Shown here: piece after piece, positions 815 to 19,570 of the stretch
How the letters are laid out: every line of letters starts with the position of its first letter
Position numbering within the stretch: the first letter of the stretch is position 1
Source of the DNA: an uncultured Oscillospiraceae bacterium
GTDB taxonomy: Bacteria > Bacillota > Clostridia > Oscillospirales > Oscillospiraceae
Length of the DNA stretch: 35,037 nt
Reading direction: 5' to 3'
Assembly (NCBI GenBank): GCA_947599875.1
Contig: CANQFV010000026.1
Location: forward strand, 1-35,037
The notes under the pieces: model-generated
Seen by the model: only the letters and a program-made list of their open reading frames with translations
Told to the model about the DNA's origin: nothing
Database searches by the model: none
Program-made: the position numbers and the translations under genes

Positions 815-855
815 AAGTGTAATCTCGGCATATGTTGCCTAAAACGAGGTGTCTT

Positions 856-1917
856 ATGCGACAATACGACTATGCGGCGGTCTATCAGAGTCTGCTCATC
901 CCAGACATTGTGGGGATGGTTGGGCAGATTCATGAGTACAAGGGAGAGCAGAACCTTTTTATCGAGGCAAAGGCGGATACGCTTTCGCAGTTACTGGAGA
1001 TTGCGAAAATCCAGAGCACCGAGGCTTCCAACCGCATCGAGGGGATCTACACCTCCAACGAGCGCTTGGAACAGCTGGTCAAAGAAAAGACTATGCCAAG
1101 GACAAGAAACGAGCAGGAGATTGCGGGCTACAGGGACGTGCTGTCAACGATACACGAAAGCCATGATTTTATTCCCCTGAAGCCCTCGATTATTCTCCAG
1201 CTTCACCGGGACCTCTACCGTTTCAGCGGCACATCAGTTGGCGGCAACTATAAAAGCATGGACAATATCATTGAGGAAACCGATGCTCAGGGGAATAAGT
1301 TCGTCCGTTTTCAGCCGGTGCCTGCCTGGGAAACGCCGGAGACTGTTGAGCGGGCCTGCCAGGCGTATAACAGCGCTCTTGACTGCGGAGAATACGACCC
1401 CCTTCTGCTCATGCCTGTTTTTATTCTTGATTTCCTCTGTATCCACCCCTTCAGCGACGGAAACGGTAGAATGAGCCGACTTCTGACACTCCTGCTGCTC
1501 TATCGTGCAGGGTATATTGTGGGCAAATACATCAGTATTGAAAAACTCATTGAAAAGACCAAGGAAACCTATTATGACACCCTGCAAGAGAGCTCTATTG
1601 GCTGGCATGAGGGCGCGAACGCATATGTCCCCTTTACCCGCTATCTGCTTGGTGTGATTCTCGCGGCATATCGTGAATTTTCAAGCCGGGTGCAGACACT
1701 GATTACCAGCGATCTCAGCAAGCCGGAGCGGGTACGGGAGATCATCCGGGGCACCCTTGGCAAAATCACCAAGGCGGAGCTTATGCGACAGTGCCCGGAC
1801 ATCAGTCAGGTCACGGTACAACGGGCTCTGAACGACATGGTCAAAAGCGGTGAGATTATCAAGCTCAGCGGCGGGCGCTACACATCTTATATCTGGAACA
1901 GGGAGAGAGAAACATGA
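856..1917 (+). CDS. Fic family protein (AMP transferase-type) with C-terminal winged helix
   Basis: A protein of 353 aa. I chose the ATG at 856 because GAGGTG lies just upstream; an in-frame ATG at 832 lacks a site and lies only about 10 bases past the likely transcription start. The Fic catalytic motif HPFSDGNGRMSR starts at residue 197, with its His as general base and the loop that holds phosphate and magnesium. The motif SNRIEG at residues 58-63 fits the (S/T)xxxE(G/N) inhibitory helix of class II Fic proteins, so activity is probably self-restrained. The C-terminal 60 residues look like a winged helix-turn-helix. Fic enzymes usually transfer AMP to hydroxyl groups of target proteins. It overlaps hsdM by ATGA, so the two are translationally coupled; Fic genes are known inside type I RM loci. 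The target is unknown. Confidence 0.9.
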   Translation: MRQYDYAAVYQSLLIPDIVGMVGQIHEYKGEQNLFIEAKADTLSQLLEIAKIQSTEASNRIEGIYTSNERLEQLVKEKTMPRTRNEQEIAGYRDVLSTIHESHDFIPLKPSIILQLHRDLYRFSGTSVGGNYKSMDNIIEETDAQGNKFVRFQPVPAWETPETVERACQAYNSALDCGEYDPLLLMPVFILDFLCIHPFSDGNGRMSRLLTLLLLYRAGYIVGKYISIEKLIEKTKETYYDTLQESSIGWHEGANAYVPFTRYLLGVILAAYREFSSRVQTLITSDLSKPERVREIIRGTLGKITKAELMRQCPDISQVTVQRALNDMVKSGEIIKLSGGRYTSYIWNRERET

Positions 1918-3410
1918 TCACTGGGGGACTTAAAAACAAAATCGACGGGCTTTGGGACATATTCGCGGCGGGGGGGCTGGTGAACCCTCTGGATGTCATT
2001 GAGCAGATTACGTATCTCATGTTTATTCACGATCTGGATGAGTCTGACGACAGAAAAAGCCGGGAGAGCGTCATGCTGGGCCTGCCTTTTGAGAGTATCT
2101 TCGCCGAGGAAGTTAAAATCGGTGACAGGACTGTACCGGGGCGCCAGCTCAAATGGTCCGTATTCCGGGACTTCCCCGCGGGACAGATGTACAGCGTCAT
2201 GCAGGAGTGGGCGTTTCCCTTTATCAAAAACCTCCACGCGGACAAGAACAGCGCCTATTCAAAATATATGGGGGACGCCATCTTCAAGCTCCCCACGCCG
2301 CTGGTGCTGTCAAAGGTAGTGGACTGCCTCGATGGAATATACAGCCAGATGGCCCAGGTCCAGGACACGGACATCCGCGGCGATGTATATGAGTATCTTC
2401 TAAGCAAGATTTCCCAGTCCGGCCTCAACGGTCAATTCCGAACACCCCGGCACATCATACGCATGATGGTGGAGCTTACGGCACCGACACCGGATGATGT
2501 GATCTGTGACCCCGCCTGCGGCACATCGGGCTTCCTCATCTCCGCCGGACAGTATCTAAAGGAGAACTATAAGGCTGAGGTGATGTTCAATAGGGAAAAG
2601 CGGGAGCACTATATGAACCGCATGTTCACCGGCTACGACATGGATCGGACCATGCTGCGAATCGGCGCTATGAACATGATGACCCACGGGGTGGATAACC
2701 CCTTCATCGAGTACCGGGACAGCCTCAGCGAGCAGAACGCCGACAGGGACAAATACACCCTCATTCTGGCTAATCCCCCCTTCAAGGGCAGCCTGGACGC
2801 GGACACCGTGTCCCCGGATCTTCTGAAGGTCTGCAAAACAAAGAAAACGGAGCTTTTGTTTCTGGCGCTGTTTTTGCGAATGCTCAAAATCGGCGGACGG
2901 TGCGCCTGCATCGTGCCGGACGGGGTGCTGTTCGGCTCCTCCGCCGCACACAAGGCCATCCGGCAAGAGCTCATCGACAATAACCGCCTGGAGGCCGTGA
3001 TCTCCATGCCCTCCGGCGTCTTCAAGCCCTACGCCGGGGTGTCCACTGGCGTCCTGGTCTTCACCAAAACCGGCCACGGCGGTACCGACAATGTTTGGTT
3101 CTACGACATGCGCGCCGACGGCCTCTCCCTGGACGACAAGCGCACACCTATAGCGGAGAACGACATCCCCGACATCGTGGCCCGTTTTCATAATCTGGAG
3201 GCCGAAAAATCCCGTTCCCGCACGGAGCAGTCCTTCCTGGTCCCCAAGGACGAGATCGTTGCCAGCGGGTATGATTTGAGCATCAATAAGTACAAAAAGA
3301 CCGAGTACGTCCCCATAGAGTACCCGCCCACAAGCCAGATCATCGCGGAGCTCAAGGAGCTGGAGGCGGAGATACAGAAAGGGCTGGAGGAATTGGAGGG
3401 GATGGTGTAA
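1914..3410 (+). CDS. hsdM: Type I restriction-modification system DNA methyltransferase subunit M
   Basis: A protein of 498 aa that transfers a methyl group from S-adenosylmethionine to N6 of adenine, acting in an M2S complex with HsdS and in the R2M2S complex with HsdR. The N-terminal 150 residues look like the HsdM_N helical domain. The SAM-binding motif DPACGTSGF starts at residue 199 and the catalytic NPPF at 287. Helices at the C-terminus (ELKELEAEIQKGLEELEG) probably contact HsdS. Length is typical. The start overlaps the fic stop (ATGA), and the stop overlaps the hsdS start (TAATG), so expression of the three is coupled. Base composition is GC-rich, unlike the following gene. Confidence 0.96.
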   Translation: MITGGLKNKIDGLWDIFAAGGLVNPLDVIEQITYLMFIHDLDESDDRKSRESVMLGLPFESIFAEEVKIGDRTVPGRQLKWSVFRDFPAGQMYSVMQEWAFPFIKNLHADKNSAYSKYMGDAIFKLPTPLVLSKVVDCLDGIYSQMAQVQDTDIRGDVYEYLLSKISQSGLNGQFRTPRHIIRMMVELTAPTPDDVICDPACGTSGFLISAGQYLKENYKAEVMFNREKREHYMNRMFTGYDMDRTMLRIGAMNMMTHGVDNPFIEYRDSLSEQNADRDKYTLILANPPFKGSLDADTVSPDLLKVCKTKKTELLFLALFLRMLKIGGRCACIVPDGVLFGSSAAHKAIRQELIDNNRLEAVISMPSGVFKPYAGVSTGVLVFTKTGHGGTDNVWFYDMRADGLSLDDKRTPIAENDIPDIVARFHNLEAEKSRSRTEQSFLVPKDEIVASGYDLSINKYKKTEYVPIEYPPTSQIIAELKELEAEIQKGLEELEGMV

Positions 3411-4558
3411 TGGCGAGATTGAAGGATGTTTTAACCATTACGACCAGTTCTCAGCAAATTGATGATGATACAATTTGGCTGCTTAACTTGGACATGGTTG
3501 AACAACAGACCGGAAATATTATTGCCTATAATTTCGTGCCAAGAAGCGAATTGAATGGTTCAATTATTCAATTTGATACGAATAATGTTTTGTACTCAAA
3601 ATTACGTCCTAATTTGAATAAAGTTGTCGTTCCAACCACATATGGCTTTGCCACTTCTGAAATGCTACCACTTCTGCCAAATCCGCAACTTTTAAGCAGA
3701 GCGTATTTAGCCGCCTTTCTGCGTTCGGATTCATTTGTTACATGGGCAGTTTCAAAAACAGCAGGCGCGAAAATGCCTCGCTTGAGTACACAAGAATTGC
3801 TGAACAAAGAAATTCCCTTGCCTTCACTGGACGAGCAGAATTACTTTTCTGCTTTACTCGATAAGACCTGCGCTCTAATCGCCCTACGCAAACAACAGCT
3901 TGCCAAACTGGATGAGTTGGTTAAGGCGAGGTTTGTGGAGATGTTTGGGGACCCATTGAAAAATGACAGAGAATGGCCAACCGCTTCACTTGGAGAGGTA
4001 GCTGAAATTCGCATTGGACCGTTTGGCTCCATGCTACATAAGGACGACTATATTGAAAAAGGGCACGCGCTCGTCAACCCGTCTCATATCATAGACGGGA
4101 AAATAGTCATAGACCCCAAGCTGACAGTTTCTGACGAAAAATATTTTGAGTTATCATCGTATGCTCTGCAACCAGGTGATGTTGTCCTTGGACGCCGGGG
4201 AGAAATGGGGCGATGCGCAGTTGCCCGCGAGGAAGGATTGCTATGCGGCACCGGAAGTATGATAATCCGTTCAAAAGGTAAAATGTTACCATACTTTCTT
4301 CAAAACATTCTTTCAAGTCCCGGATACAAGAAAATCATCGAAGATAAAGCTGTTGGAGTTACGATGTTAAACTTAAATATCCCCATCGTTTCTGCACTGG
4401 AAGTGCCACTTCTACCGTTAAGGGAGCAAAATCAATATATCTGCTTTTTGAAGAAAGTTGACGAAATAAAGTTGACAACCCAACAGGGATTGGATAAACT
4501 GGAAATGGCAAAAAATGCGTTGATGCAGGAGTATTTTGAAGGAGGTAAAAGTTTGTGA
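3410..4558 (+). CDS. hsdS: Type I restriction-modification specificity subunit S
   Basis: A protein of 382 aa that sets the DNA target of both methylation and restriction. It shows the usual two-fold layout: a first target recognition domain (about 1-145), a central conserved coil containing QQLAKLDELVKARFVEMFGD (about 160-182), a second recognition domain (about 190-335) starting near WPTASLGEVAEI, and a C-terminal coil. The first domain begins directly at the N-terminus with little leader. The start ATG overlaps the hsdM stop. The gene is clearly more AT-rich than hsdM and hsdR, which suggests that the specificity gene was exchanged within the locus. The recognition sequence cannot be read from the protein. 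Confidence 0.93.
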   Translation: MARLKDVLTITTSSQQIDDDTIWLLNLDMVEQQTGNIIAYNFVPRSELNGSIIQFDTNNVLYSKLRPNLNKVVVPTTYGFATSEMLPLLPNPQLLSRAYLAAFLRSDSFVTWAVSKTAGAKMPRLSTQELLNKEIPLPSLDEQNYFSALLDKTCALIALRKQQLAKLDELVKARFVEMFGDPLKNDREWPTASLGEVAEIRIGPFGSMLHKDDYIEKGHALVNPSHIIDGKIVIDPKLTVSDEKYFELSSYALQPGDVVLGRRGEMGRCAVAREEGLLCGTGSMIIRSKGKMLPYFLQNILSSPGYKKIIEDKAVGVTMLNLNIPIVSALEVPLLPLREQNQYICFLKKVDEIKLTTQQGLDKLEMAKNALMQEYFEGGKSL

Positions 4559-6832: not shown

Positions 6833-9800
6833 ATGTCCAACTTCTCCTTCCTCCAATCCAATAACGATTTTGTCCCCTTCTCCGCCCCTGCCATTGCCGC
6901 GGAGAAGATCATACACATTGACCCCGCTGCGTGCATATTGAACTGCCGACGGTCTATGGAGGCGGGGGTAAAGTGGATGTACTCGGTGGACTGCGCGCTG
7001 AAGGTTGGTGGGGATGAGCGGCTGGCGGCGCTGATGGACTGCGAGGACTTTCGGGACATCGTGGGGCCGGACATCTGGCGGAGGATGGACCTTGTGCGCA
7101 AGTTGGGCAATCAGGCGGCGCGCTCCGGGCGGAGGCTGACGGAGGAGCAGGCCGTCGCATGCCTTGAAAATCTCTACACATTTCTGGACTTCGTGGCCTA
7201 CTGCTACGGCGAAAACTATGTAGAGGGGCATTTTGACCGCGACCTTCTGACGGCTCCAGCCGATACGCCCACGTCGGCGCCCGCCCCAGAGATTGACCTT
7301 GCAAAGCTCATAGAGGAGAACCGGGCGTTGCGGGAGGAGCTGACCCGCCGAAGGGAGAATCAGCAATCCACTTACAGCCCCAAGCCACCGGAACCCAGTG
7401 AATATGAGACGCGGAAGATTTACATAGACACCATGCTCATGGATGTGGGCTGGACTGAGGGGCGGGACTGGCTTAACGAGGTAAAGCTGCCCGGTATGCC
7501 CAACAAGTCCGAGGTGGGCTACGCCGACTATGTACTTTACGACGACGCCCTCCGGCCCCTGGCGGTCATAGAGGCGAAGAAAGCCTGCGTGGACGTGGCG
7601 AAGGGCCGCCAGCAGGCCAAGCTCTATGCGGATATTCTGGAAAAGCAGTGCGGCCGCCGTCCCGTCATCTTTCTGACCAACGGCTTTGAGACACGCATCG
7701 ACGACGGGCAGTACCCGGAGCGCCGTGTCGCCGCTATATGGTCCAAACGGGATCTGAAGAAGCTTTTCAATCTGCGCTCCATGCGCCTGAGCCTGAAAAA
7801 CGCCCCAATCGACCACGATATCGCCGGTCGATACTACCAGGAGGCGGCCATCCGGGCGGTGTGTGACACCTTGGAGATAAAAAACCGCCGGAAAGCGCTC
7901 CTTGTCATGGCCACAGGCTCCGGCAAGACCAGGACGGTCATCGTCCTGTGCAAGGTGCTTTTGGAGCACGGCTGGGTGCGGAACATCCTTTTCCTGGCGG
8001 ACAGGAACGCCCTTGTGACCCAGGCCAAAAGGGCGTTTGTGAACCTTATGCCCGATTTGTCGCTGACGAACCTGTGTGAAGAGAAGGATAACTACACCGC
8101 CCACTGCGTCTTCTCCACCTATCAGACCATGATGAACTGCATCGACGAGGCCAGGGACGAGGAGGGGAAGCTCTTTACCTGCGGGCATTTTGACCTTGTT
8201 ATCTGTGACGAGGCCCACCGGTCGATTTACAATAAATACAGGGATATTTTCACCTATTTTGACGCTCCCCTCATCGGCCTCACAGCCACCCCTAAGGACG
8301 AGATTGAGAAGAACACCTATGAGATTTTCGAGCTTCCCGCCGGCACGCCTACCTACGGCTACGAGCTGGCCCAGGCGGTGCAGGATGGGTATCTGGTGGA
8401 CTTCCTGTCCGTAGAGACGAAGCTGAAATTTATTGAGGAGGGCATCGTTTACGACGAGCTTTCCGAGGAGGACAAGGCCGCCTATGAGGACACCTTCAGT
8501 CAGGACGGCGATATGCCTGACCGCATCGGCTCCGCGGCTCTGAATGAGTGGGTTTTCAACGAGGACACCATCCGCCAGGTTTTGAACGTTCTTATGACCG
8601 ATGGTCTGCGGGTGGATTACGGGCAGAAGATCGGAAAAACCATTATCTTCGCTAAGAACCACAACCACGCGGAAAGAATACTGGAGGTTTTCGGGAAAGA
8701 GTACCCGCACCTTGCCGGTCAGGCCAAGGTCATAGACAACCGCATCAACTACGCCCAGAGCCTCATTGACGAGTTCTCTGACCCCAAAAAGCCGCCTCAA
8801 ATCGCCATATCGGTGGATATGTTGGATACCGGCATTGATGTGCCGGAGGTCATGAATCTGGTGTTTTTCAAGAAGGTCCTGAGTCGGGCGAAATTCTGGC
8901 AGATGATCGGCAGGGGCACGCGCCTGTGTCCGGGGCTTCTGGACGGCGTGGACAAGAGCAAATTCTACATCTTTGATTTTTGCGGCAATTTTGAGTTTTT
9001 CCGTATGAATAAAGGAAAGCCCTCGGCCAATCAGGTGGCGGTGCAGAGCGCGATTTTTAATTTGAAAGCTCAAATTGCCTCCAAACTTCAGGATTTGGCC
9101 TATCGGACGCCGGAGCTGATAGAGTTTCGGAAGTCCCTGGTGGAGGACATGATCCGGAAGGTTCAGGAGCTCAATCGAGAAAATTTCGCCGTAAAGCAAC
9201 ACCTGAAATATGTGGAGCGGTATTCCGAGCCTGAGAGCTATACCACAGTGACCTACGAGGATACATTGATCATAGCTGAGGAGCTGTCGCCGCTCATAGT
9301 GCCTGATCAGGACGACCCGAAGGCCATGCGGTTCGACGCACTTATGTACGGGATTGAGCTTGCGTATCTGGCGGGCAAGAAGTACACCCGTGCCAGGAAC
9401 GACCTTCTGCGAAAGGCGGAGGCGATCGCCGGCGTGGCGAACATCCCGGCTATCATGGCACAGGGGGAGTTTCTGGACAGGCTCCTGCACACAAACTACC
9501 TGGACGGCGCGGGTATCAACGAGTTTGAGGAGATTCGGGAGCGGCTGCGGGATCTGATCAAATATATCCCGGTGGAGTCCGCGTTGTACACCACCGATTT
9601 CGATGACAGAATCCTGTCTGTGGATTGGAATGAAGCGGAGCTGGACAGCGACGACCTGGCGGGCTACAAGGCGCGGGCGGAGTTCTATGTCCGGGAGCAT
9701 CAAAACGAGCCGGTCATCGCCAAGCTCCGGGAAAATGTCCCGCTGACAAAGTCGGACATCGACGAGCTGGAGTCTATCCTCTGGAGCCAGGTTGGGACGC

Positions 9801-10117
9801 GGGAGGAATATGAGGCCGTCTACGGCGCAAAACCCCTGGGTGACTTCGTCCGGGAGCTCACGGGCCTGGATATGAAAGCGGCGAAGGAGGCCTTCGCCGC
9901 CTACCTCAACGACACAAGGCTGGACGCCCGGCAGATCTATTTTGTCAATCAGATTGTTGAGTACATCGTCCATAACGGCGTTCTCCGGGACTACACCGTT
10001 TTCCAGGAGCCCCCATTCACCGACCGTGGCAGCATCGTGGAGGTCTTCACCGACATGACCGTCTGGCTGGGGATTAAGTCAGTCATTGACCAGATAAACG
10101 CCAACGCCGCAGCATAA
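6833..10117 (+). CDS. hsdR: Type I restriction endonuclease subunit R (EcoEI-like translocase)
   Basis: A protein of 1094 aa. The ATG at 6833 follows GGAGGTG by 6 bases and starts MSNFSFLQ, the usual N-terminus of the family; 33 in-frame upstream residues lack a site. An N-terminal DUF4145-like helical domain (about 1-140) is followed by the nuclease domain with D232 and E247-A-K249. The SF2 helicase core shows ATGSGKT (360-366), DEAH (459-462), LTATP and QMIGRGTRLC (from 690). The C-terminal 250 residues resemble the EcoEI_R_C domain that docks on HsdM/HsdS. It uses ATP to pull DNA and cleaves unmethylated DNA far from the site. Very GC-rich. A spacer of about 125 bases separates it from the preceding gene. 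Confidence 0.95.
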   Translation: MSNFSFLQSNNDFVPFSAPAIAAEKIIHIDPAACILNCRRSMEAGVKWMYSVDCALKVGGDERLAALMDCEDFRDIVGPDIWRRMDLVRKLGNQAARSGRRLTEEQAVACLENLYTFLDFVAYCYGENYVEGHFDRDLLTAPADTPTSAPAPEIDLAKLIEENRALREELTRRRENQQSTYSPKPPEPSEYETRKIYIDTMLMDVGWTEGRDWLNEVKLPGMPNKSEVGYADYVLYDDALRPLAVIEAKKACVDVAKGRQQAKLYADILEKQCGRRPVIFLTNGFETRIDDGQYPERRVAAIWSKRDLKKLFNLRSMRLSLKNAPIDHDIAGRYYQEAAIRAVCDTLEIKNRRKALLVMATGSGKTRTVIVLCKVLLEHGWVRNILFLADRNALVTQAKRAFVNLMPDLSLTNLCEEKDNYTAHCVFSTYQTMMNCIDEARDEEGKLFTCGHFDLVICDEAHRSIYNKYRDIFTYFDAPLIGLTATPKDEIEKNTYEIFELPAGTPTYGYELAQAVQDGYLVDFLSVETKLKFIEEGIVYDELSEEDKAAYEDTFSQDGDMPDRIGSAALNEWVFNEDTIRQVLNVLMTDGLRVDYGQKIGKTIIFAKNHNHAERILEVFGKEYPHLAGQAKVIDNRINYAQSLIDEFSDPKKPPQIAISVDMLDTGIDVPEVMNLVFFKKVLSRAKFWQMIGRGTRLCPGLLDGVDKSKFYIFDFCGNFEFFRMNKGKPSANQVAVQSAIFNLKAQIASKLQDLAYRTPELIEFRKSLVEDMIRKVQELNRENFAVKQHLKYVERYSEPESYTTVTYEDTLIIAEELSPLIVPDQDDPKAMRFDALMYGIELAYLAGKKYTRARNDLLRKAEAIAGVANIPAIMAQGEFLDRLLHTNYLDGAGINEFEEIRERLRDLIKYIPVESALYTTDFDDRILSVDWNEAELDSDDLAGYKARAEFYVREHQNEPVIAKLRENVPLTKSDIDELESILWSQVGTREEYEAVYGAKPLGDFVRELTGLDMKAAKEAFAAYLNDTRLDARQIYFVNQIVEYIVHNGVLRDYTVFQEPPFTDRGSIVEVFTDMTVWLGIKSVIDQINANAAA

Positions 10118-11060: not shown

Positions 11061-12062
11061 TTAGTATAACTTCAACGGTGATACTTTTTCCGGCAATGAC
11101 TCCATCTCCTTTGCTGCCCTGCTGTAGTTCATGTAAAAATACAGCGAGGGCAGATATATCACATCCATCCTTTTGCTGATTGTGACGGGCGAGAGTCCTA
11201 TGTCGGTGAAGGCCGCCAACAGCCGGTTTGGTTCCCGGTAGCTCATCGCCTTCTGAGCGAGAAGCACGGATTTTTTCTCCGATATCAGTTCGATTAACCG
11301 CAACATTTTTCTTTGCTGCCGCAAATCCCTGACCTTTTGGCGAACTATGTTGACAGCTTCGCCTTTTTTATAGGAATCACCGCTTGGTATTATTTGAGAA
11401 AATATGCCCATAAAGATCTTTTCACTTCTTCCAGACAATTCAAGAATTTGCCCGGCTATGTTGTCCCTGTTGCTGTGATTGCGGATCGCTTTTGATGATG
11501 TCAAACACACCTCCGCCCGTAGAATACCTTTTGCATCTCTGATACCTGACCTGTTTGCCAACGTCGTGTGAAGATCGTAAAGGAGAAAGCTGACCCCGTT
11601 GCTGTTCCCCTCCAGGCAGAAGTTCTTACTCGCATCAAGCCCTTCATAGCGGACCTGTGAAAATCCTTTGACCTTTCCGACCCGACGTATGACCCTGATA
11701 TACGAGGCAACCATATCTTGACTTCCAACATTGATGTCCGCTGTCAATGCCAGCTCGGTCAATGTGAAGTCCTTCAAACTATACTTGCCTCCGAAGTATT
11801 CGCAGATCCGTTTCTCCAACTTGTTAATGAGTTTATGGGCATCCAAGCCCTTCTCCTTCAGCACAACGGCAGAATCCACAATCAGGCTCACCTTCTTTTT
11901 GTACCGGCTGTCTCGGTATAGAACTGTGACCCCTTTGTGAGCCAACGACGTATCTATGTACTCGTCTTTGTCAGCCTCCAAAAGATCGCGTTTTTTGAAA
12001 ATGCGGTCAAATCTGTCAGTGTTAAGTACCATTGTCAGCTTGAAAACTTGGTTTATGTACAT
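11061..12062 (-). CDS. Putative replication initiation-like protein (phage/plasmid gene II-like)
   Basis: A protein of 333 aa; AGGAGGAG lies 7 bases before the ATG at 12062. No catalytic motif is certain. The C-terminal part (SPVTISKRMDVIYLPSLYF) and a central strand-turn (ILRAEVCLTSSKAI) line up with PVTIPRDWGIKQIPNLL and IIRFEVQCKYLKVY in the divergent gene at 12632. The two therefore look like distant paralogues. The general layout resembles phage/plasmid replication proteins of the gene II/X type, which nick an origin to start rolling-circle replication, but I cannot see a clear HUH motif. This copy is shorter and lacks the N-terminal part of its partner. It may instead be a regulator or a decayed copy. 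Confidence 0.45.
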   Translation of the reverse strand: MYINQVFKLTMVLNTDRFDRIFKKRDLLEADKDEYIDTSLAHKGVTVLYRDSRYKKKVSLIVDSAVVLKEKGLDAHKLINKLEKRICEYFGGKYSLKDFTLTELALTADINVGSQDMVASYIRVIRRVGKVKGFSQVRYEGLDASKNFCLEGNSNGVSFLLYDLHTTLANRSGIRDAKGILRAEVCLTSSKAIRNHSNRDNIAGQILELSGRSEKIFMGIFSQIIPSGDSYKKGEAVNIVRQKVRDLRQQRKMLRLIELISEKKSVLLAQKAMSYREPNRLLAAFTDIGLSPVTISKRMDVIYLPSLYFYMNYSRAAKEMESLPEKVSPLKLY

Positions 12063-12631
12063 GTAAAACTCCTCCTGCCTCTATCAGTTATGCAGAAAAT
12101 TCAGAAAATTGTATGCAATATTTACAAATATGTTTATCCTTCTATCATTTTAAAGTGAAATTTCCAGCAGGAATCGCAATCAGACCTTCCCGCTGTTTTC
12201 TACTTGAACAAAAAATACTCTTTACGCCACGCTTGATTTGTAAACGAGTCAGGAATAGATACCTGTTTATTTTGAAATGATGATATATCTAATATTGTGT
12301 CGTTTCCACCAACCGATCTGTTTGAATAAGCTTCTGGTTTGAAATAATAAAAAGTAAAAATAAAACGTCATGGGCGATATCGCCCATGACGTTTCTTGGT
12401 AATATAAGTATTATTATGTGTACACTTTATATGGTAACTAAAAAATGTTTCTTATTTCTATTGCATTTGTAACAGGTTGCATATCAGTATCAAGTATTTA
12501 TTTTTAATACTAAAATTGCGTATTACATTTTTTTAATTTAGATTATGACTGTTTGGTTTATCATAGGCTGCTGTTACAGTAATAAACTACTGGTACAAAT
12601 TGTGTTGACTTATTCCACGAGAGGTGAAAAA
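12063..12631. other. AT-rich divergent spacer, candidate replication origin
   Basis: 569 bases without a gene separate two divergent rep-like genes. The sequence is very AT-rich with many A and T runs (for example about 12330-12370 and 12480-12545) and contains one GC-rich perfect palindrome at 12363-12394. In small plasmids and phages this arrangement is typical of an origin beside its initiator gene. No iterons were found by eye. Confidence 0.35.
12363..12394. repeat. Perfect 32-bp palindrome between the rep-like genes
   Basis: The half-site AAACGTCATGGGCGAT (12363-12378) is followed immediately by its exact inverse complement (12379-12394). It is an island of GC-rich sequence in an AT-rich spacer. 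It could extrude as a cruciform, be a nick site for a rolling-circle initiator, or bind a dimeric protein. It is not followed by a T-run on either strand, so it is unlikely to be a simple terminator. Confidence 0.8.
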
Positions 12632-13888
12632 ATGGAGAACTCTATATTACAACCCGCATTAGAATCACATATGCGATCTTCGTTGGGGTTTCATACCTTG
12701 ACTTTATCCAAGCCCTCATATTTATGCAAAGGACATGAGTTGATTGGGCAGTTTATGGAAGTCAGTAAAAAAACAGGAAATCTACAGATATATTCGGATA
12801 AGTATGGAAATGTAAAAATAAAATTCTATAAGAGAGATATGGGTATTGAATGGTCGGTTCGCTTTAATGTTTGGAACGAAAGGTTAAAGCTACCATATGA
12901 TGTTGTTGAGGTAAAAATAAATCCGAAAACTCTCTGCGGAATTTATGACTATATCACTGCGGCAACAATTCGAGATTTTTACAGGGCTATTGAAAACTTT
13001 GATAACATTTCTGAATCCATATCGCCGTTGCTTGAAACCTTCAGAAATTACGAGTTAAAGCGTATCGATTACTGTGCCAATTTTTCAGTGAACGAGCTTG
13101 CGCCAGGATGTACCTCTGAGCAAATAATAGACTTGATCAAGCGTAGTGATATTCCATCGGCATTCACGGAGTACACGGAATACGATGAAATATCCCATCG
13201 AAAGAAACCAAAGAGTGACAGTTTTTACTTGATGTGTCAATCCGTACATATCAATTGTTATCGAAAAGTGGTGGAACTTCAACAGCGGGCAGAGATCGGT
13301 AATAGGAGAATGACTTCCTGTGTCTCACAGGCAACAGTAGATGAGGCACGGGACATTATCCGCTTTGAGGTGCAATGTAAGTATCTAAAAGTGTATTCGT
13401 TATCAAAGGAGGCAAAAAAGGCTAAATACACTGTAGCTACTGAGTTTGAATATTTGCTTGGAGATAGAATGTGCAGAAACATAATAGAGTATTATTTCAA
13501 AAAGACAATTGGGTACGGCGATTGGTATTCCCTAAAAGACGCAATTGCTAAAATACAGTCACACAACTTCAACAGGCAAAAAGAAAACCGCTTAATTGAG
13601 GCTCTAAATTGTGTAAATCAATGTAGAAGTCTGGCAAAAGCGAAGGCGCTATACCAAGGTAACGACTTATTGGCTTTTAACCGGACACTTAACGATTTGT
13701 CTGATTTAAATATCAACCCTGTTACCATTCCGCGAGACTGGGGGATAAAGCAGATTCCAAATCTCCTTTGTGAGTATTACCGGCAAAAACGATTAGAGCA
13801 AAGTATGTACTGCCTCGAACTTCTTGAGAAGGAAGATCCAAATTATTTCCGGAAAATGATTAGAGAACAATGCCGTTCAGAAGGTTAA
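12632..13888 (+). CDS. Putative replication initiation protein (phage/plasmid gene II-like)
   Basis: A protein of 418 aa; AGAGGTG lies 5 bases before the ATG at 12632, while 29 further in-frame upstream residues have no site. Features reminding me of phage/plasmid replication proteins are VVEVKINPKTL (91-101), RIDYCANF (144-151), a VHINCYRKVVEL segment and IIRFEVQCKYLK. The C-terminal region PVTIPRDWGIKQIPNLL is shared in pattern with the divergent minus-strand gene. Such proteins normally nick the origin and start rolling-circle replication of a small replicon. A definite HUH or catalytic Tyr motif is not identified, so the family call is tentative. The gene is AT-rich and converges on a serine resolvase, a common plasmid partner. 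Confidence 0.5.
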   Translation: MENSILQPALESHMRSSLGFHTLTLSKPSYLCKGHELIGQFMEVSKKTGNLQIYSDKYGNVKIKFYKRDMGIEWSVRFNVWNERLKLPYDVVEVKINPKTLCGIYDYITAATIRDFYRAIENFDNISESISPLLETFRNYELKRIDYCANFSVNELAPGCTSEQIIDLIKRSDIPSAFTEYTEYDEISHRKKPKSDSFYLMCQSVHINCYRKVVELQQRAEIGNRRMTSCVSQATVDEARDIIRFEVQCKYLKVYSLSKEAKKAKYTVATEFEYLLGDRMCRNIIEYYFKKTIGYGDWYSLKDAIAKIQSHNFNRQKENRLIEALNCVNQCRSLAKAKALYQGNDLLAFNRTLNDLSDLNINPVTIPRDWGIKQIPNLLCEYYRQKRLEQSMYCLELLEKEDPNYFRKMIREQCRSEG

Positions 13889-13939: not shown

Positions 13940-14506
13940 TTATTTACTCTTCCCAATATGCAGATTTCTATAAAGCGTTGCCTTCTTCACCCCCGCCAGC
14001 TCCTCGATCTCCCTGACGGAATACTGCCCGGTGTTGTAGAGCTTCACAGCCTTTTTCACCTTCTCTGGGTCCGTTCTGGGCCTGCCGCCGGTTCTGCCTC
14101 TTGCTCTGGCGGAGCGAAGGCCCTCTCTGGTGCGGTCGGCGATCACGTCACGTTCAAACTGGGCGATGGCGGACATCAGCGTGAACAGGAGCTTGCCCGT
14201 GCTGGTGCTTGTGTCGATGGACTCCTTGAGGCTGACAAGGTGGACGCCCTTTTTCTCAAAAATCTCGGTGAGCTCGATGAGGTCTTTTGTACTGCGGCCA
14301 AGTCTTGACAGGCTCTCAATCACCACGGTGTCACCCTCGGTCACGCGGTCCAGGAGCTTCGTGAGCTCGGGCCGGTCCCGTCTTGTGCCGGTCATTTTTT
14401 CGTTGTAAATAAGGTCACACCCATACTTTTTGAGCGCGTCCAGCTGCCGGTCAAGGTTTTGCTGTTCTGTGCTAACGCGGGCATAGCCAAAGATGTAGTT
14501 TTTCAT
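13940..14506 (-). CDS. Serine recombinase, resolvase/invertase family
   Basis: A protein of 188 aa, the usual length for a small Tn3-type resolvase or DNA invertase. AGGAGGG lies 3-4 bases before the ATG at 14506. The catalytic domain has YARVSTEQQ with Ser12 as nucleophile and the arginine motif IESLSRLGRS near residues 63-72. The long E helix (SAIAQFERDVIADRTREGL) and a C-terminal helix-turn-helix (YSVREIEELAGVKKATLY) follow. It cuts and rejoins DNA through a 5'-phosphoserine link to resolve dimers or invert segments. It converges with the rep-like gene, and an imperfect palindrome lies 60-90 bases upstream of its start that could be part of its target site. It could serve a plasmid-like module or a transposon. 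Confidence 0.93.
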   Translation of the reverse strand: MKNYIFGYARVSTEQQNLDRQLDALKKYGCDLIYNEKMTGTRRDRPELTKLLDRVTEGDTVVIESLSRLGRSTKDLIELTEIFEKKGVHLVSLKESIDTSTSTGKLLFTLMSAIAQFERDVIADRTREGLRSARARGRTGGRPRTDPEKVKKAVKLYNTGQYSVREIEELAGVKKATLYRNLHIGKSK

Positions 14507-14660: not shown

Positions 14661-15588
14661 TCATACGAGGGCAAAGCTGTTCTCGTAAAGGTATTCCTCA
14701 ATCTCTTCCGGCATAAACCCCTCCATCAAGAACCGGTCAATCATCTGTGGGGAGTACCCGTAGGCCCCGGCCACAGCCTTTAGTTCGTCGATATATTCCG
14801 CCTCATAGTGCGAGTTGTGGCGGGACAGAGGGGGATAGTACAAATCATAAGACACGCTGCTGTCATCGAACCTGGACCATGTGGGCTTGCCCGCGGAGGT
14901 GAGTTTAAGGATGTCACCGCTGTTCATCGGAACCTTAACAGGTGTCTCCGTCAGGAAACCGATACGCTTCAAGGCCCTTGTCAGGATCTGCTCGGTGGAT
15001 GCGTAGACGTAGAGGCCGAGGTCCGGGTAGTGAATCAGCGCCATAGGGTTGTCGCCCCGGACGAAGTAGAGACTGCCGTTCTCATCTAGCACAGTGACGG
15101 TGAAGGAGCCCAGGAGCTCTTCCGCCATGTTCCCCAGAGCCTTCGCACTCAGCTCTCCGGCGGCCTTCAGGAGTTGGACACAAATATAGCTGTCCGTTTC
15201 GATCTTCGTCTCCGGGAGCCTGTGAGAGCGTCTGAGGGACGTGTCATTGAAGATCACGCCGTTGTGGGCCAGGGCGAAGTGCGTACTTCCCGCAGTGGCC
15301 TCAAAGGGGTGGTTATTGTAATTGAATGTAATTGAATTTCGCGTTCCCCTGCGTGGTCATGCGGGTGTGCCCCATGACGATATTGGCATCTCCGGGCAGG
15401 ACGAACCTCATGTTGTGGGCAGGAAGCGGGCGTTTGTAAATGTGGAGACGGTTTCTGCTTATGTAGGCGATCCCGGTGGCATCGGTGCCCCGGTCCTCGG
15501 CGGAGACGGCAAGCTCCGTAAGAAGGCGGGTCTTCTGGCGGAGGGAGAGTCTGTTTTTGTAGTCGAGGATTCCAAACAGGCAACACAT
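14661..15588 (-). pseudogene. Class II glutamine amidotransferase, broken by a 10-bp tandem duplication
   Basis: The start ATG at 15588 overlaps the amidoligase stop (TAATG) and has GGAGGTGGAG upstream. The product begins MCCLFGILD, with Cys2 as the N-terminal nucleophile of class II amidotransferases, and continues with GHTRMTTQGN. The frame then stops after YIQLQ. The sequence continues in another frame as HFALAHNGVIFNDTSL, the expected next family motif, through to 14661. The cause is an exact duplication of 10 bases (15318-15327 and 15328-15337); removing one copy rejoins the frame as KFNYNNHPFEA and gives about 305 aa. The intact enzyme would release ammonia from glutamine, plausibly for the neighbouring amidoligase. 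The C-terminal helices (MPEEIEEYLYE) are of unknown role. Confidence 0.85.
15318..15337. repeat. Exact 10-bp tandem duplication causing a frameshift
   Basis: The unit GTAATTGAAT occurs twice in a row inside the amidotransferase gene. Ten is not a multiple of three, so the second copy shifts the frame and exposes a stop within a few codons. A two-copy tandem repeat can be lost by slippage, which would restore the gene. Confidence 0.95.
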
Positions 15589-16697
15589 TATATCTCCACC
15601 TCCACATTCACGGGCTCACTCACGTAGAGGCGGCGCTCCTTGAGGTACTGCACAAGCTCCGGGGAACGGCAGAAGTCCGTTACGAACTCCGTCCAGGTGA
15701 GGCTTTTCAGCGCCTCGTCAGGCAAAGAAAGAGCCACATCACAGATGGCGCTGACCATCTGCAACGTGGCGAAGAAGGTATTGAGTTTTAAGGTTCCCCG
15801 GAACATGCGGAACTCCACTGTGGCGCAGTTGGTGAGATTCACGCAGGTGTACCGGCTTAACGAGCGGGATTTGGCCTGGTCCAGAAACGCTTTTGGATCA
15901 TCCTTCCTTCCGTATCTGTCGGCCCACTGTTCCATCTGGCGCTGTGTCCTTCGGCTGAAGCGCAAAAGCTCGTTCCAGTGGTTCTCCGCGAAGAAAAGGA
16001 TCCGGGCAATCACCGCCTCCTGATCCTTTTCACAGGCGCCGAACGACGAGCGGTTGACGTGGACATGGAGCCCGCAGGTGCCGCACTGATGGCTGAGATA
16101 GCCCAGATTAACGGCCTTCCTCAGCACCTCCGGCCAGGGCATATCGCTCATGTGGTACCTGAGCGTCATGGGGTGGGACACCAGCTCGATGCCGTCATGG
16201 AGAGAACCGTCGTGCTTGCAGTAGAGATGGTCGTGTCTCCTGTTGGCTATGGCCATTATCTCCTGCGCCGCGCTGTCGCTTTCGCCAGCCTCATCGATCT
16301 CCAGCTCCACGCCGAAGTAGCGGTTCCCTTCACCGTAGAAGATGGGTTCGGGCTTGTAGTAGTAGTCTCTGACGCCTCCGTTTTGGTCATGGTAGCATTC
16401 GGAACAAAGGGGGTAGTCCTCATCCTCGTCGGAATCTCTGTAGCAGGCATCATCCTGTTCGATGAGCCTTCCGCAGTGGTCACAGTGGGTGTAGTAGTTC
16501 TCGTAGCACCTCCAGCAGAGGAAGGTGTTGTCGTCCCCGGCGTCATCGTCCAGCCAATATCGCTCCCCACAGTGGGAGCAGATGGCGGTGTGCACGGAAA
16601 CACAGTGTTCACAAAGATCCTGACCGTCAAATTCAGTCAGTTCGTTGATATCGCAAACGTGACCGCAGTGGTCACAGGTAAATTGTTCGCTTGTCAT
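15588..16697 (-). CDS. Amidoligase-family protein (COOH-NH2 ligase) with N-terminal zinc fingers
   Basis: A protein of 369 aa starting at the ATG at 16697, which has GGAGG 8 bases upstream; longer starts (ATG 16712, TTG 16718) lack good sites. Residues 8-101 carry six CxxC pairs (CDHC, CEHC, CSHC, CWRC, CDHC, CSEC), suggesting several zinc-binding fingers. The rest matches the glutamine-synthetase-like amidoligase family: GVELE (129-133), DGS (163-165), ELVSHP (171-176), CGLHVHVN (208-215) and EFRMFRGT (295-302). Such enzymes are predicted to use ATP to join a carboxyl to an amine, making amide or isopeptide links. A class II glutamine amidotransferase follows with overlapping stop/start, a pairing known for this family. 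The substrate is unknown; it may be a protein, given the fingers. Confidence 0.88.
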   Translation of the reverse strand: MTSEQFTCDHCGHVCDINELTEFDGQDLCEHCVSVHTAICSHCGERYWLDDDAGDDNTFLCWRCYENYYTHCDHCGRLIEQDDACYRDSDEDEDYPLCSECYHDQNGGVRDYYYKPEPIFYGEGNRYFGVELEIDEAGESDSAAQEIMAIANRRHDHLYCKHDGSLHDGIELVSHPMTLRYHMSDMPWPEVLRKAVNLGYLSHQCGTCGLHVHVNRSSFGACEKDQEAVIARILFFAENHWNELLRFSRRTQRQMEQWADRYGRKDDPKAFLDQAKSRSLSRYTCVNLTNCATVEFRMFRGTLKLNTFFATLQMVSAICDVALSLPDEALKSLTWTEFVTDFCRSPELVQYLKERRLYVSEPVNVEVEI

Positions 16698-16720
16698 TCT
16701 CTCATCCTCCATATACAAAT

Positions 16721-17494
16721 TCAGCCGGCCTCCGAAAGCTCCGGGACCATCTCAGATGAGCTGACGATGTCCATGAACTGTCGGGCGTAGGCATTGGCAC
16801 GGGCGGCCTCGTCGGGATCCAAGGCGCTCACGGCCTCAAAGTTAAAAACCGCATAGGGCTTTCCGGCTTTGCTGGTGGCACGGGTCAGAGTGATCCTGGT
16901 GACAACACTGCTCAGCGGCGTGAGTGTGCTGAGCAGCCGTGTGGCATATTTGAGAAAACGCCCCTTGCTGGTCACGGGGATCCGAACAAGCAGGGGGATG
17001 ATGCTGTTGGGTCTGAGAAGGAACAGCAGTACTGACTCCTTGCAGGCCTTGGCAGCGCTATCGCCGTCTTTGGAGCCGAAGTCGTTGTAGGGGCAGTGGG
17101 CACAGGCCTTCCCGTCCTGGGAGATGATGCTGTTTTCGCTCATGCAGACAGGCGGTGTCCCCTCCACCGGGTCGGGGGTATCCCAGTAGGCCCTGGGCGT
17201 GGTGTAGTTCAAGACGATCCCGGTAAGCTCCCTCTCGGCCTCGTCGCCGGAAAGACCGGGCACAGAGAAGACCGTGGACCCACCGGAGGGCGACTTGACC
17301 ACATCGAACAGCTCAAGGGAAATGGGCTGATTTTTCAAATTGGATCGGATGATCTCCAGGGTATTTCCGGTCAGGGCGAGATAATGGGAATCGCTGACGG
17401 TCATAGCTGTTTCAGCGGCGGGATGGGTCGCCTCTATGTCCTGCGCCGCCTGAACCTTATCGCCAAGACGGGATTTCAATTTTGCGTTATCCAT
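16721..17494 (-). CDS. Unknown protein with a four-Cys cluster (possible recombination-associated protein)
   Basis: A protein of 257 aa; AAGGAGG lies about 8 bases before the ATG at 17494. I do not recognise a named family. The middle has a Cys cluster, CMSEN then CAHC then CKES (pattern C-x13-C-x2-C-x15-C), which could bind zinc or an iron-sulfur centre. The sequence around it is beta-rich, with strands such as PLLVRIPVTSKGRF and VVTRITLTRAT, compatible with an OB-like ssDNA-binding fold. Its place between a YqaJ nuclease and an amidoligase, in a run of genes typical of phages and conjugative elements, suggests a role in DNA recombination. That function is an inference from context only. Confidence 0.6.
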   Translation of the reverse strand: MDNAKLKSRLGDKVQAAQDIEATHPAAETAMTVSDSHYLALTGNTLEIIRSNLKNQPISLELFDVVKSPSGGSTVFSVPGLSGDEAERELTGIVLNYTTPRAYWDTPDPVEGTPPVCMSENSIISQDGKACAHCPYNDFGSKDGDSAAKACKESVLLFLLRPNSIIPLLVRIPVTSKGRFLKYATRLLSTLTPLSSVVTRITLTRATSKAGKPYAVFNFEAVSALDPDEAARANAYARQFMDIVSSSEMVPELSEAG

Positions 17495-17509
17495 TGATAT
17501 GAACCTCCT

Positions 17510-18454
17510 TTATACAGCCGCTCTCACAGAGAATCTGCGGTAAGATGTTTTGTTCGTGTATTTCTGATACAATGCCGGATGCTCGACCTTCAAGGTCCTG
17601 CTGTCCAGCCTCTCCTGGGTGACGCTCTTCCAGGTGATGATCCTGCCGCCGGATATTCCAGCCTCGTTTTCCCCCAGCATCTGCTTCAGCCTGTTCTCGG
17701 CCTCCTGCTTTCGCTGTGTGACCGTCTCCAATTGCTCGCTGGCCTGGTCATACAGGTCGAGGACCTCGGCGGCCTCATCGGGCAGGGTGATTTGGGACCT
17801 GGGGACACTGTCCGGGTAGAGTCTGGCAAGAAATCTGGCGGAGGCATCCGAGCCGTCCAGGGCAGGCGGCGTTACATTTTGAACATGGTCCCAAAACTGG
17901 GCCTCCAGTTCAATGAGCATGGCGATCAGCTCATCGTCCCTGGGGATAAACCTCCACTTGAACGTGTTGCCGCCAATGAGAACAGCGATGTAGGCACCCT
18001 TGTACCCGGTGACAGCCATGTAGTGCTGGACCTGGATCATGTACTCGTCAGGGATGGTGTCATCCCATTCCCCAACTTTGTATGCCGAGGCGGTCTTTGC
18101 CTCAAAGATGCAGGTGCCATGGTCCCCCGTCTCACACACGCCGTCCAGGTTCGCCAGCATGAAGGGGTGTTCCTCGCTCTGGAGGATCTGCTTGACCAGC
18201 CTCACATCAACGCCGGTCCTCCTGGTAAATTCCGCCCTCACCAGCGCTTCAAGCTGTGTCCCCCAATAGGCCGCCTCTCCCGCCTCCTGATGGGGCATCT
18301 GGCCGGTCTTCTCCATCCACAGCTCCACGGGGGACTTGTACCGGCTGACACCGCAGACCACGGAGGCGTCGGAACCGCCGATACCAAGTTTCCTGTATTC
18401 CAGCCATTTCTCATAGGGCATATTTTCTGTGGAGACAAGTATTTTTGCCGGCAT
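17510..18454 (-). CDS. YqaJ-type viral recombinase (lambda exonuclease-like nuclease)
   Basis: A protein of 314 aa from the ATG at 18454, with GGAGGTGAG upstream; the longer frame beyond this start runs into the DUF932 gene and is not used. YqaJ proteins are lambda-exonuclease-like enzymes that chew DNA for homologous recombination with a partner annealing protein. The family N-terminus GIGGSDASVVCGVSRYKSP is present (about 24-42). The metal site fits D104 in LANLDG, E118-x-K120 in FEAKTA, and Gln141/Gln143 in QVQHYM. The C-terminal 80 residues are a predicted coiled coil plus extension. A partner RecT-type annealing gene is not obvious; the neighbouring 257-aa or DUF932 protein could fill that role. 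Confidence 0.9.
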   Translation of the reverse strand: MPAKILVSTENMPYEKWLEYRKLGIGGSDASVVCGVSRYKSPVELWMEKTGQMPHQEAGEAAYWGTQLEALVRAEFTRRTGVDVRLVKQILQSEEHPFMLANLDGVCETGDHGTCIFEAKTASAYKVGEWDDTIPDEYMIQVQHYMAVTGYKGAYIAVLIGGNTFKWRFIPRDDELIAMLIELEAQFWDHVQNVTPPALDGSDASARFLARLYPDSVPRSQITLPDEAAEVLDLYDQASEQLETVTQRKQEAENRLKQMLGENEAGISGGRIITWKSVTQERLDSRTLKVEHPALYQKYTNKTSYRRFSVRAAV

Positions 18455-18458
18455 GATC

Positions 18459-19385
18459 TCACCTCCCCATGCAGAGTGCCACTGTCTTGTCCATGATCGC
18501 GTGACCGTCCATGATGCGCCCCCAGTTGTTGGCGGCGTAGTTTTTGGTGTTCCTGTGGGGCATGGAGTGGGTGACAAGATTGCTGGCTGCGTTGATGACG
18601 CCCCAGGCCGTACCCCGGAACTTCTCAATGTCCGGTGCGTAGTAGCAGACCATGAACTCGGTCCTGCATCTCTCGGCGTTTGCCTTTTCCCGTTCAGTGG
18701 ATCTCTCCGTGACAGGGAACAGCTCATTGAGGATAGCCTTGATATCCTCATCCAGTAGCCGGAGCTTAGCGGCACGTTCGGCGTACTCCGCAAGGCCGGT
18801 CATGTACTCATTGGCCCGGAAAAGGCAGCTCCTGGCCTCGTCCAGACGGTCATGGACGTTCTCCGTGTGGCGCAGGGTCCAGATACGTCTCGCGGAACCC
18901 AGCGCCAGGTTGAGGGTGTTGTTGCAGACCACCCGGATGGGCGTCATGCAGACCTTGATACCGCCGCTCCCGTCATGGGAATTGATGAAGCAAAGGTACG
19001 GCTCCACCTCGTCCCCGGCGATCAGGCGCTCTGGCATTTTGGCGAGCAGCCATATCTGCCGCCCCTCCCGGAGAGAGCCGGCCGTCTCATACCTGACACC
19101 GCCGCCGATCAAATCGTCGGTGAAGCTGAAGGCGTCGGCGTTCTGGACCACCTTGTAACGCTCCCCGACGATCCCCAGAACGCTGCCATCCGAATCACGG
19201 ACATTTGCCCTGTATCCAGGGATGACTCGGCCCTCACCGTCAAACACCGGCTCCTGCCTCACCGTCCAGTCAAGTCCGGCGAGCCTCAGAGCGTCGGCAC
19301 TGACAGGCGCCTCCTCCACCATCGTCCCCAAGCCGTGCCAGGGCTTTTCTCGCACATACATCATCGTCTCCACATTTGCTGGCAT
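18459..19385 (-). CDS. DUF932 (phage/plasmid-like) protein
   Basis: A protein of 308 aa. AAAGGAG is 9 bases before the ATG at 19385 but touches the in-frame ATG at 19394, so the shorter start is preferred. The sequence has the hallmarks of the DUF932 family: PWHGLGTMV near the start, GYRANVRDSDGSVLGIVGERYKVVQN, then a C-terminal helical part with NLALGSARRIWTLRHT and NAASNLVTH. These proteins are common in phages and conjugative elements, usually beside YqaJ or RecT-type genes. Their biochemical role is not settled, though a link to DNA replication or recombination is often assumed. The stop lies 4 bases before the YqaJ start, so the two are one transcript. Confidence 0.9.
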   Translation of the reverse strand: MPANVETMMYVREKPWHGLGTMVEEAPVSADALRLAGLDWTVRQEPVFDGEGRVIPGYRANVRDSDGSVLGIVGERYKVVQNADAFSFTDDLIGGGVRYETAGSLREGRQIWLLAKMPERLIAGDEVEPYLCFINSHDGSGGIKVCMTPIRVVCNNTLNLALGSARRIWTLRHTENVHDRLDEARSCLFRANEYMTGLAEYAERAAKLRLLDEDIKAILNELFPVTERSTEREKANAERCRTEFMVCYYAPDIEKFRGTAWGVINAASNLVTHSMPHRNTKNYAANNWGRIMDGHAIMDKTVALCMGR

Positions 19386-19424
19386 TGAAAGCATCTCCTT
19401 TACTATGATTTGAGCACAGAAAGA

Positions 19425-19455
19425 AGAGAGGGCCCCCGCAAGGGGAACCCTCTCT
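19425..19455 (-). terminator. Hairpin between the 35-aa peptide gene and the DUF932 gene
   Basis: AGAGAGGG (19425-19432) pairs with CCCTCTCT (19448-19455), with CCCC/GGGG inside extending the stem. On the minus strand it is followed by TCTTTCT. It may partly terminate transcription and so reduce expression of the downstream cassette, or be an RNA-processing stem. Confidence 0.4.
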
Positions 19456-19462
19456 CTGGACG

Positions 19463-19570
19463 CTATTCACTTTCCTCAAAGATCTTCTCCGCCCCTTTGA
19501 TCACTTCTCCAGCCGCCAACAGCGCCGAGAGGATCAGCAGAACGGTTTCCAGGATCTTTTTAAAGGACAT
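19463..19570 (-). CDS. 35-aa hydrophobic peptide
   Basis: A short frame from the ATG at 19570 with GGGAGGCGG just upstream, ending at TAG 19463. The product begins MSFKKILETVLLILSALLAA, followed by a charged helix ending in EESE. One membrane helix with a basic N-terminus and acidic C-terminus is likely. Such small peptides precede recombination cassettes in some mobile elements, but I do not know a function. Because it is so short, coding is supported only by its ribosome binding site and its sensible amino-acid pattern. Confidence 0.45.
   Translation of the reverse strand: MSFKKILETVLLILSALLAAGEVIKGAEKIFEESE

Follow-up and report, generated by a model that had tools for sequence, protein, structure and literature searches.

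Iyer et al. (2009) reportedly described pairs of an Amidoligase_2 (PF12224) protein and a class II glutamine amidotransferase (GATase) in phages. The same two families are adjacent and co-directional in MEP402 (gp06-gp07) and in mycobacteriophage Marvin (gp105-gp106), and the amidoligase-GATase pair noted in OM43 phages (PMC10580990) agrees with the pairing found in this study. The passages on phage pairs that we cite name no demonstrated substrate. The present analysis concerns such a pair, whose amidoligase carries an N-terminal LIM-like zinc module (LIM-amidoligase), on a 35,037-nucleotide stretch of DNA from an uncultured Oscillospiraceae bacterium. This stretch, hereafter the window, corresponds to the complete contig C26 of a 2.73-megabase genome in 89 contigs. 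Compared with the phage pairs, the pairs analysed here lie mostly on chromosomes of Oscillospiraceae and relatives, and a DUF3846 protein and a small serine recombinase are common partners.

Other described systems share part of this organization. YbdK (a carboxylate-amine ligase) and glutamine synthetase (GS) are alike in predicted fold and ligase-type residues, whereas identity is approximately 8-14% and the protein analysed here has an extra LIM-like module and a separate glutaminase subunit. PafA and Dop (Pup ligase and depupylase) have a GS-like fold acting on proteins and are weaker Foldseek matches of the amidoligase model (expectation value (E) 0.017 for PafA and 2.6e-3 for Dop); to our knowledge, they have no glutaminase partner and no LIM module. 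GatD is a class I glutaminase, and its partner MurT differs from the amidoligase in being Mur-ligase-like. According to PMC3267633, MurT and GatD are a ligase and a partner subunit that amidate peptidoglycan. P4-like satellite hotspots, as outlined in PMC9122126, have an integrase, an excisionase-like HTH_17 protein and a primase with defence-like cargo further on, as do two of our loci (L048 and L098), the likeness being drawn here from integrase, HTH_17 and DUF5906 genes only.

Analysis of the window revealed a tight minus-strand run from 19394 to 14661, with spacings of 2 to 23 bases and a one-base overlap between amidoligase and GATase. The genes of the run are as follows.

18459..19394, minus strand: DUF932 protein (TIGR03299, phage/plasmid-like), first of the run; PF06067 E 3.8e-55, TIGR03299 E 1.3e-71
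17510..18454, minus strand: YqaJ-type recombination exonuclease; PF09588 E 2.8e-47, phrog_434 (RecE-like) E 2.8e-108
16721..17494, minus strand: four-cysteine protein directly after YqaJ; phrog_23155 E 3.5e-33
15588..16718, minus strand: LIM-amidoligase, N-terminal LIM-like zinc module and GS-like ligase; PF12224 E 1.2e-9, phrog_16683 E 1.6e-86
15313..15588, minus strand: N-terminal piece of the class II GATase, beginning Met-Cys, frame broken; intact L077 protein (phmmer E 3e-52), weak GlmS matches
14661..15257, minus strand: C-terminal piece of the class II GATase in another frame; intact L077 protein (phmmer E 6e-137 over the open frame 14664-15356)

A five-gene run on one strand with such E-values is not a chance arrangement. 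The order, coordinates and families of this row agree with the initial annotation of the window, and its neighbours were found again in other genomes.

Comparison of loci revealed that the amidoligase-GATase pairing, which had been recognized from the window, is general. The GATase is directly downstream in 75 of 80 loci from titled genome records (four have no room for it and one, L106, lacks it) and nearby in 101 of 107 non-redundant loci, where gene calls came from our own script and cluster family names rest on one member each. Among viral contigs with an identity of at least 48%, 10 of 11 have it, the exception (L171) holding a partial amidoligase only. Among 74 divergent loci (70 viral contigs, three phage records and one plasmid record), a profile iterated on near hits alone placed a GATase within 3.5 kilobases (kb) in 65, compared with 37 before iteration; this profile matched none of the remaining open reading frames in the 74 loci. 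A regular-expression search for GATase motifs was dropped as too strict, being blank even where profiles match. Two amidoligase-GATase pairs lie close by on one strand in L127.

Of 400 genomes from this bacterial family, 39 encode the amidoligase, representing 20 of 106 genera (single-protein search, E 1e-20), as do three of 398 genomes across the phylum, that of the window included (profile, E 1e-30); these two rates are not on one scale. Identity to the window protein is 50-62% in the aligned sets and 76-94% in near kin. Carriers include Butyricicoccus pullicaecorum DSM 23266, Oscillibacter valericigenes Sjm18-20 and Flavonifractor isolates. The genome search found a single amidoligase in its own genome, the one in the window. 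Matches extend to 24 phage and six plasmid records, with only two phage records matched over 80% of the length of the protein. The first viral scan with a single protein query gave no match and was replaced by an alignment-based scan.

The amidoligase assignment proposed for the window was confirmed by profile, since the PF12224 score is 38.8 bits against a curated cut-off of 22; all 30 members of amidoligase set A1 match this family at E 0.1. The start of the window gene is ambiguous (TTG at 16718 or ATG at 16697). The predicted structure has a GS fold in the ligase domain (VIA-align structural rows span residues 123-358), and ligase-type residues are conserved. HMG-CoA reductases, interleaved with the GS-like Foldseek rows at a low template modelling score, were treated as noise.

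The six CxxC pairs noticed in the window protein are conserved in an alignment of 78 sequences: their 12 positions are cysteine (or histidine) in 55 of 55 to 76 of 76 rows reaching them, and once in 75 of 76. Pfam LIM was matched in 14 of 30 amidoligase relatives, the window copy having no match at E 0.1, and LIM proteins in PDB match the zinc part with E 0.003 or worse by sequence and 0.012 or worse by Foldseek (LMO2 0.012; PINCH 0.063). In UniProt, a phage protein with this fold bears the name 'LIM domain containing protein'. A literature search pairing amidoligase with 'LIM domain' returned no paper; Iyer et al. (2009) may already describe zinc-finger fusions. The initial annotation had proposed that the zinc part brings the ligase to DNA or to a protein. 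Because of the likeness to LIM domains in Pfam matches of relatives and in LMO2 and PINCH, our reading leans to protein binding over DNA binding.

Unlike the GATases of relatives, which are nearly always one frame of approximately 300-330 residues (309 in L036; L073 is also split), the window copy has its cysteine/arginine part separated from the rest, the two pieces being in different frames. The N-terminal Cys, Arg, Asn-Gly and Asp motifs occur in one frame in 28 of 28 relatives in set A2 and not in the window. Intact relatives keep the Met-Cys, GHxR, HNG and TDS motifs and all 28 match GATase_6, whereas the two window pieces, searched separately, have no Pfam match at E 0.01 and only weak matches to GlmS-type models. 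Translations suggest a short insertion as the cause of the break, which may be a mutation or an error of this single assembly. Because its GATase is broken, the window pair is probably inactive or reliant on free ammonia. The model of the intact L077 GATase (predicted local distance difference test score 91.5) has the glutaminase fold of PurF and GlmS and adds a C-terminal three-helix domain (residues 257-301), which appears UBA-like by sequence. The GATase itself ends in a Cys-rich, zinc-finger-like part in the divergent phages L033 (Marvin gp106) and L223, as if the zinc module fits either subunit.

Among recurring partners of the pair is a small serine recombinase: of the 77 loci that leave room for it, 47 have it downstream, co-directional and no more than 4 kb away, whereas upstream, counting both strands, it occurs in one of 84. 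DUF3846, absent from the window, is found no more than 3 kb away from 32 of the 55 amidoligase sites in the 39 carrier genomes; 32 of the 62 DUF3846 hits in these genomes adjoin an amidoligase and 30 do not. Neighbour counts in the 39 genomes used 55 of 57 amidoligase rows, the second halves of two split genes being excluded. Pairwise distances correlate with those of the amidoligase for the GATase (r 0.80, n 88) and nearby DUF3846 (r 0.83, n 36), and more weakly for the recombinase (0.38, n 55), an XRE regulator (0.37, n 42) and the HTH_17 protein (0.18, n 49); shared ancestry of whole elements is not removed from these values. Since distances track the amidoligase at 0.83 for DUF3846 against 0.38 for the recombinase, DUF3846, where present, appears to behave like a third component, and the recombinase seems to keep its position yet be exchanged.

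The island setting was read from the 55 loci with flanks of 8 kb or more upstream and 3 kb or more downstream. Thirty-four of them encode a large serine recombinase or a tyrosine integrase; relaxases occur in 14 and DUF5906 primases in 13, every primase locus also having a recombinase. In one compact layout, L090 (5087-15089), integrase, HTH_17, primase, amidoligase, GATase and XRE genes lie between two tRNA-Ser genes approximately 9.8 kb apart; a 24-base word close to their 3' ends is common to both, and the second gene runs into the end of the contig. This island is a possible model element for the cassette. Eight of ten hand-picked cargo-type proteins match PADLOC models and two have no match. 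Among the matches, L048 has one to BnzB, L098 has a SIR2 protein together with a weaker match to BnzA, and L042 has a kinase of the PD-T4-6 type. When cargo and control were compared in a paired manner at E 1e-15, this yielded 93 PADLOC families for 100 cargo proteins (one per cluster, from 123 clusters) and 13 for 100 of 176 control genes (not one per cluster), and the control matches read partly as relatives of housekeeping proteins, such as DndA/SspA.

Taking together the families, folds, catalytic-type and zinc-type residues, pairing, partners and island setting seen in sequences and models, we propose that the pair is an ammonia-channelling amide synthetase, with a protein as its most likely target, carried as mobile cargo that helps its carrier in conflict. 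The GATase is predicted to hydrolyse glutamine through its N-terminal cysteine and pass ammonia on; the GS-like amidoligase would activate a carboxylate with ATP and convert it to an amide; and the LIM-like module would select the target. The amide chemistry follows from established knowledge of both families and the near-constant pairing, and is of a known kind. The protein target is suggested by the LIM-like module and the partners, and the conflict role by the presence of the pair in both islands and phages and by the defence-rich setting. Integrative islands and phages would carry the pair as cargo, frequently together with DUF3846 and the small serine recombinase, and the pair would most likely modify a host, phage or element protein, aiding the carrier against competing elements or defences. 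We put this proposal at just under an even chance. A more specific version, in which LIM-amidoligase, GATase and DUF3846 form a mobile protein-amidation system, is speculative and on balance unlikely: its LIM-like module would bring in a target, perhaps DUF3846 itself or else a phage or defence protein, whose Asp/Glu or C-terminal carboxylates would be turned into amides, serving anti-phage defence or interference in islands and as a counter-weapon in phages. Should a protein prove to be the target, mobile elements would have in enzymatic amidation a post-translational weapon or shield. In its compact form on islands, where a targeting module is joined by a third, co-varying protein and named isolates are carriers, the pair would make the substrate question testable.

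Several observations weigh against this proposal. Clusters for integrase, large recombinase, primase and relaxase are all missing from 19 of the 55 wide-flank loci. No GATase was seen in nine of the 74 divergent loci (three of these have less than 300 bases of contig downstream), or near the amidoligases of L106 and of genome G367 (L238, 8316-9446), where DUF932 is directly next. Neither the amidoligase nor an intact GATase matched PADLOC at E 0.01, nor did the DUF932, four-cysteine, DUF3846 and DUF960 proteins. Mobile DNA is generally rich in defence genes, and the PADLOC comparison, which counts families and not proteins, shows the setting and not the role of the pair. The role in conflict or defence of a mobile element suggested by the initial annotation gains indirect support, and its suggestion of nucleotide modification during recombination found no specific support. 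Finally, RmlB-like (c22) and RmlA-like (c29) sugar-nucleotide genes, identified by reading one member of each, lie close to the pair in seven and four of 107 loci, which suits a different substrate.

On that alternative, the pair would amidate peptidoglycan or an envelope precursor in the manner of MurT/GatD and so block superinfection. An ammonia-using chemistry with a glutaminase subunit fits this account, but the GATase here is class II and GatD class I, and a LIM-like module would be unexpected in an enzyme whose substrate is linked to a lipid or sugar. The RmlB- and RmlA-like genes are mostly upstream on the other strand and may only mark an insertion site; examples upstream of the amidoligase on the other strand are L043, L062 and L074. 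Surface amidation has been proposed for the amidoligase of phage phiEco32, as cited in passages of PMC10580990 and PMC11318856. Because of the recurring sugar genes, our estimate for the surface account was raised slightly, to a level still best called unlikely, and that for the protein-directed proposal was lowered from an even chance to just below it.

Isopeptide or peptide tagging in the manner of PafA/Pup, with a carboxylate joined to a protein amine and DUF3846 or small upstream proteins as the tag, is a rather improbable reading. Dop and PafA among the weaker Foldseek matches and the DUF3846 distances favour it, as does the presence in 22 of 107 loci of a microprotein (E below 0.02) encoded on the same strand no more than 450 bases upstream of the amidoligase; in 17 of these 22 its end lies 10 bases or less from the amidoligase start. 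The near-constant glutaminase, however, argues that ammonia is the nucleophile, and DUF3846 and the microproteins are missing from many loci, the window included. The microprotein upstream is the second of two: one of approximately 28 residues is amphipathic (MLxxLLSxIRAxL...), and the next, of approximately 35 residues, has one hydrophobic stretch and ends ...LCAAIDYFxKEE. They were seen in L037, L042, L046-L048, L052, L053, L056, L080, L086, L087, L090, L092, L094, L095, L098, L143 and others; both are located elsewhere in L058, and some copies appear to have no usual start codon. Some of the loci searched with the profiles p1 and p2 had also contributed to building them. In 14 of 107 loci (for example L114-L116, L134 and L158) the gene just upstream of the amidoligase encodes a DUF960 protein, a name that rests on one member.

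The recombination genes of the window raise the alternative that the pair acts with YqaJ, DUF932 and the four-cysteine protein in repairing DNA or replicating the element, for example through modification of the recombinase proteins. The four-cysteine protein, which has no Pfam match and no PDB sequence match at E 1, follows YqaJ in L041, L077, L238, L240 and L242 and is a candidate annealing or single-stranded DNA-binding partner. Compared with a lambda-Red-like module, YqaJ (PF09588) supplies the exonuclease part, and an annealing role of DUF932 or the four-cysteine protein is putative. In favour of a joint role, the run in the window is tight and co-directional, and at least five arrangements of trio and pair, all co-directional, were found: the trio upstream of the pair (window, L036 and L077), after the pair and DUF3846 (L041) or after an amidoligase for which no GATase was seen (L238); YqaJ with the four-cysteine protein directly after the pair (L240); YqaJ-DUF932 ahead of it (L102 and L103); and DUF932 after it (L239, where the contig ends, and L101, whose genes are split). 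In the 39 genomes, five of 16 DUF932 hits and five of 22 YqaJ hits are no more than 10 kb from an amidoligase, whereas such stretches make up approximately 1.1% of these genomes, a comparison that used the 13 strong DUF932 hits and ignores that both genes live on mobile DNA. This shared habitat makes proximity alone a weak argument. Nearby DUF932 and YqaJ genes each occur in only seven of 107 non-redundant loci and the four-cysteine family in four (L238-L240 are outside the 107), the trio of L242 lies near DUF3846 but has no amidoligase, and DUF932-YqaJ likewise lacks one in L241. We therefore consider one joint machine improbable; trio and pair are repeatedly associated modules on shared elements. 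The coupling to recombination genes drawn from the window recurs, as a minority arrangement among several, DUF3846 and the recombinase, the latter not mentioned in the initial annotation, being commoner partners.

That the pair is a passenger with a benefit in nitrogen or small-molecule metabolism, merely shuffled by the adjacent serine recombinase, fits the frequent downstream place of that gene and a nitrogen-metabolism role proposed for a planctomycete phage (in passages of PMC10945688), but is improbable because recombinase distances track the amidoligase only as weakly as those of the XRE regulator, the cassette has no consistent inverted-repeat layout and the LIM-like module suggests a macromolecular target.

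The recombinase was rejected as an old partner, as its place is constant but its distances track the amidoligase weakly. Because it is of resolvase/invertase type, inverted repeats were sought around cassettes: repeated 13-mers occurred in 42 of 57 cassettes against 14 in single shuffles, hairpins included, with no consistent place, leaving an invertible promoter unsupported. Early-gene placement in phages, where the pair precedes replication genes in MEP402 and an RNA polymerase gene in ctgrD200, was set aside because a T7-type polymerase was found in two and a terminase model in six of 47 records. When 86 proteins encoded next to divergent phage amidoligases were compared with PHROGs, no family had more than four members and no shared module emerged.

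The neighbours of the run in the window are as follows.

13940..14506, minus strand: small serine recombinase (resolvase/invertase type) downstream of the pair; PF00239 E 6.4e-47
12545..13888, plus strand: Rep-like protein by our reading, probably of the same element; same place in L077
11061..12062, minus strand: Rep-like protein by our reading, probably of the same element; clusters with 12545-13888, same place in L077
1914..10117, plus strand: type I restriction-modification genes outside the pair (HsdM 1914-3410, HsdS-like 3410-4558, HsdR 6833-10117)
832..1917, plus strand: Fic/Fido protein; PDB Fido protein 8uqu E 7.3e-85

The two related Rep-like proteins, on opposite strands (11061-13888), adjoin the recombinase and have no Pfam, NCBIfam or PHROG match at E 0.01. 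No tRNA gene was found in the window. Left of the run, the plus strand holds the Fic and restriction-modification genes; to its right, deaminase, solute-binding, laccase-like and SecA genes read as ordinary chromosome. HsdM matches the type I M subunit 5ybb in PDB (E 7.4e-49) and HsdR the R subunit 3h1t (E 1.3e-34), the HsdS-like call at 3410-4558 being a reading of its sequence. A second DUF932-YqaJ pair, that of L241, lies on contig C53 of the same genome (4493-6629).

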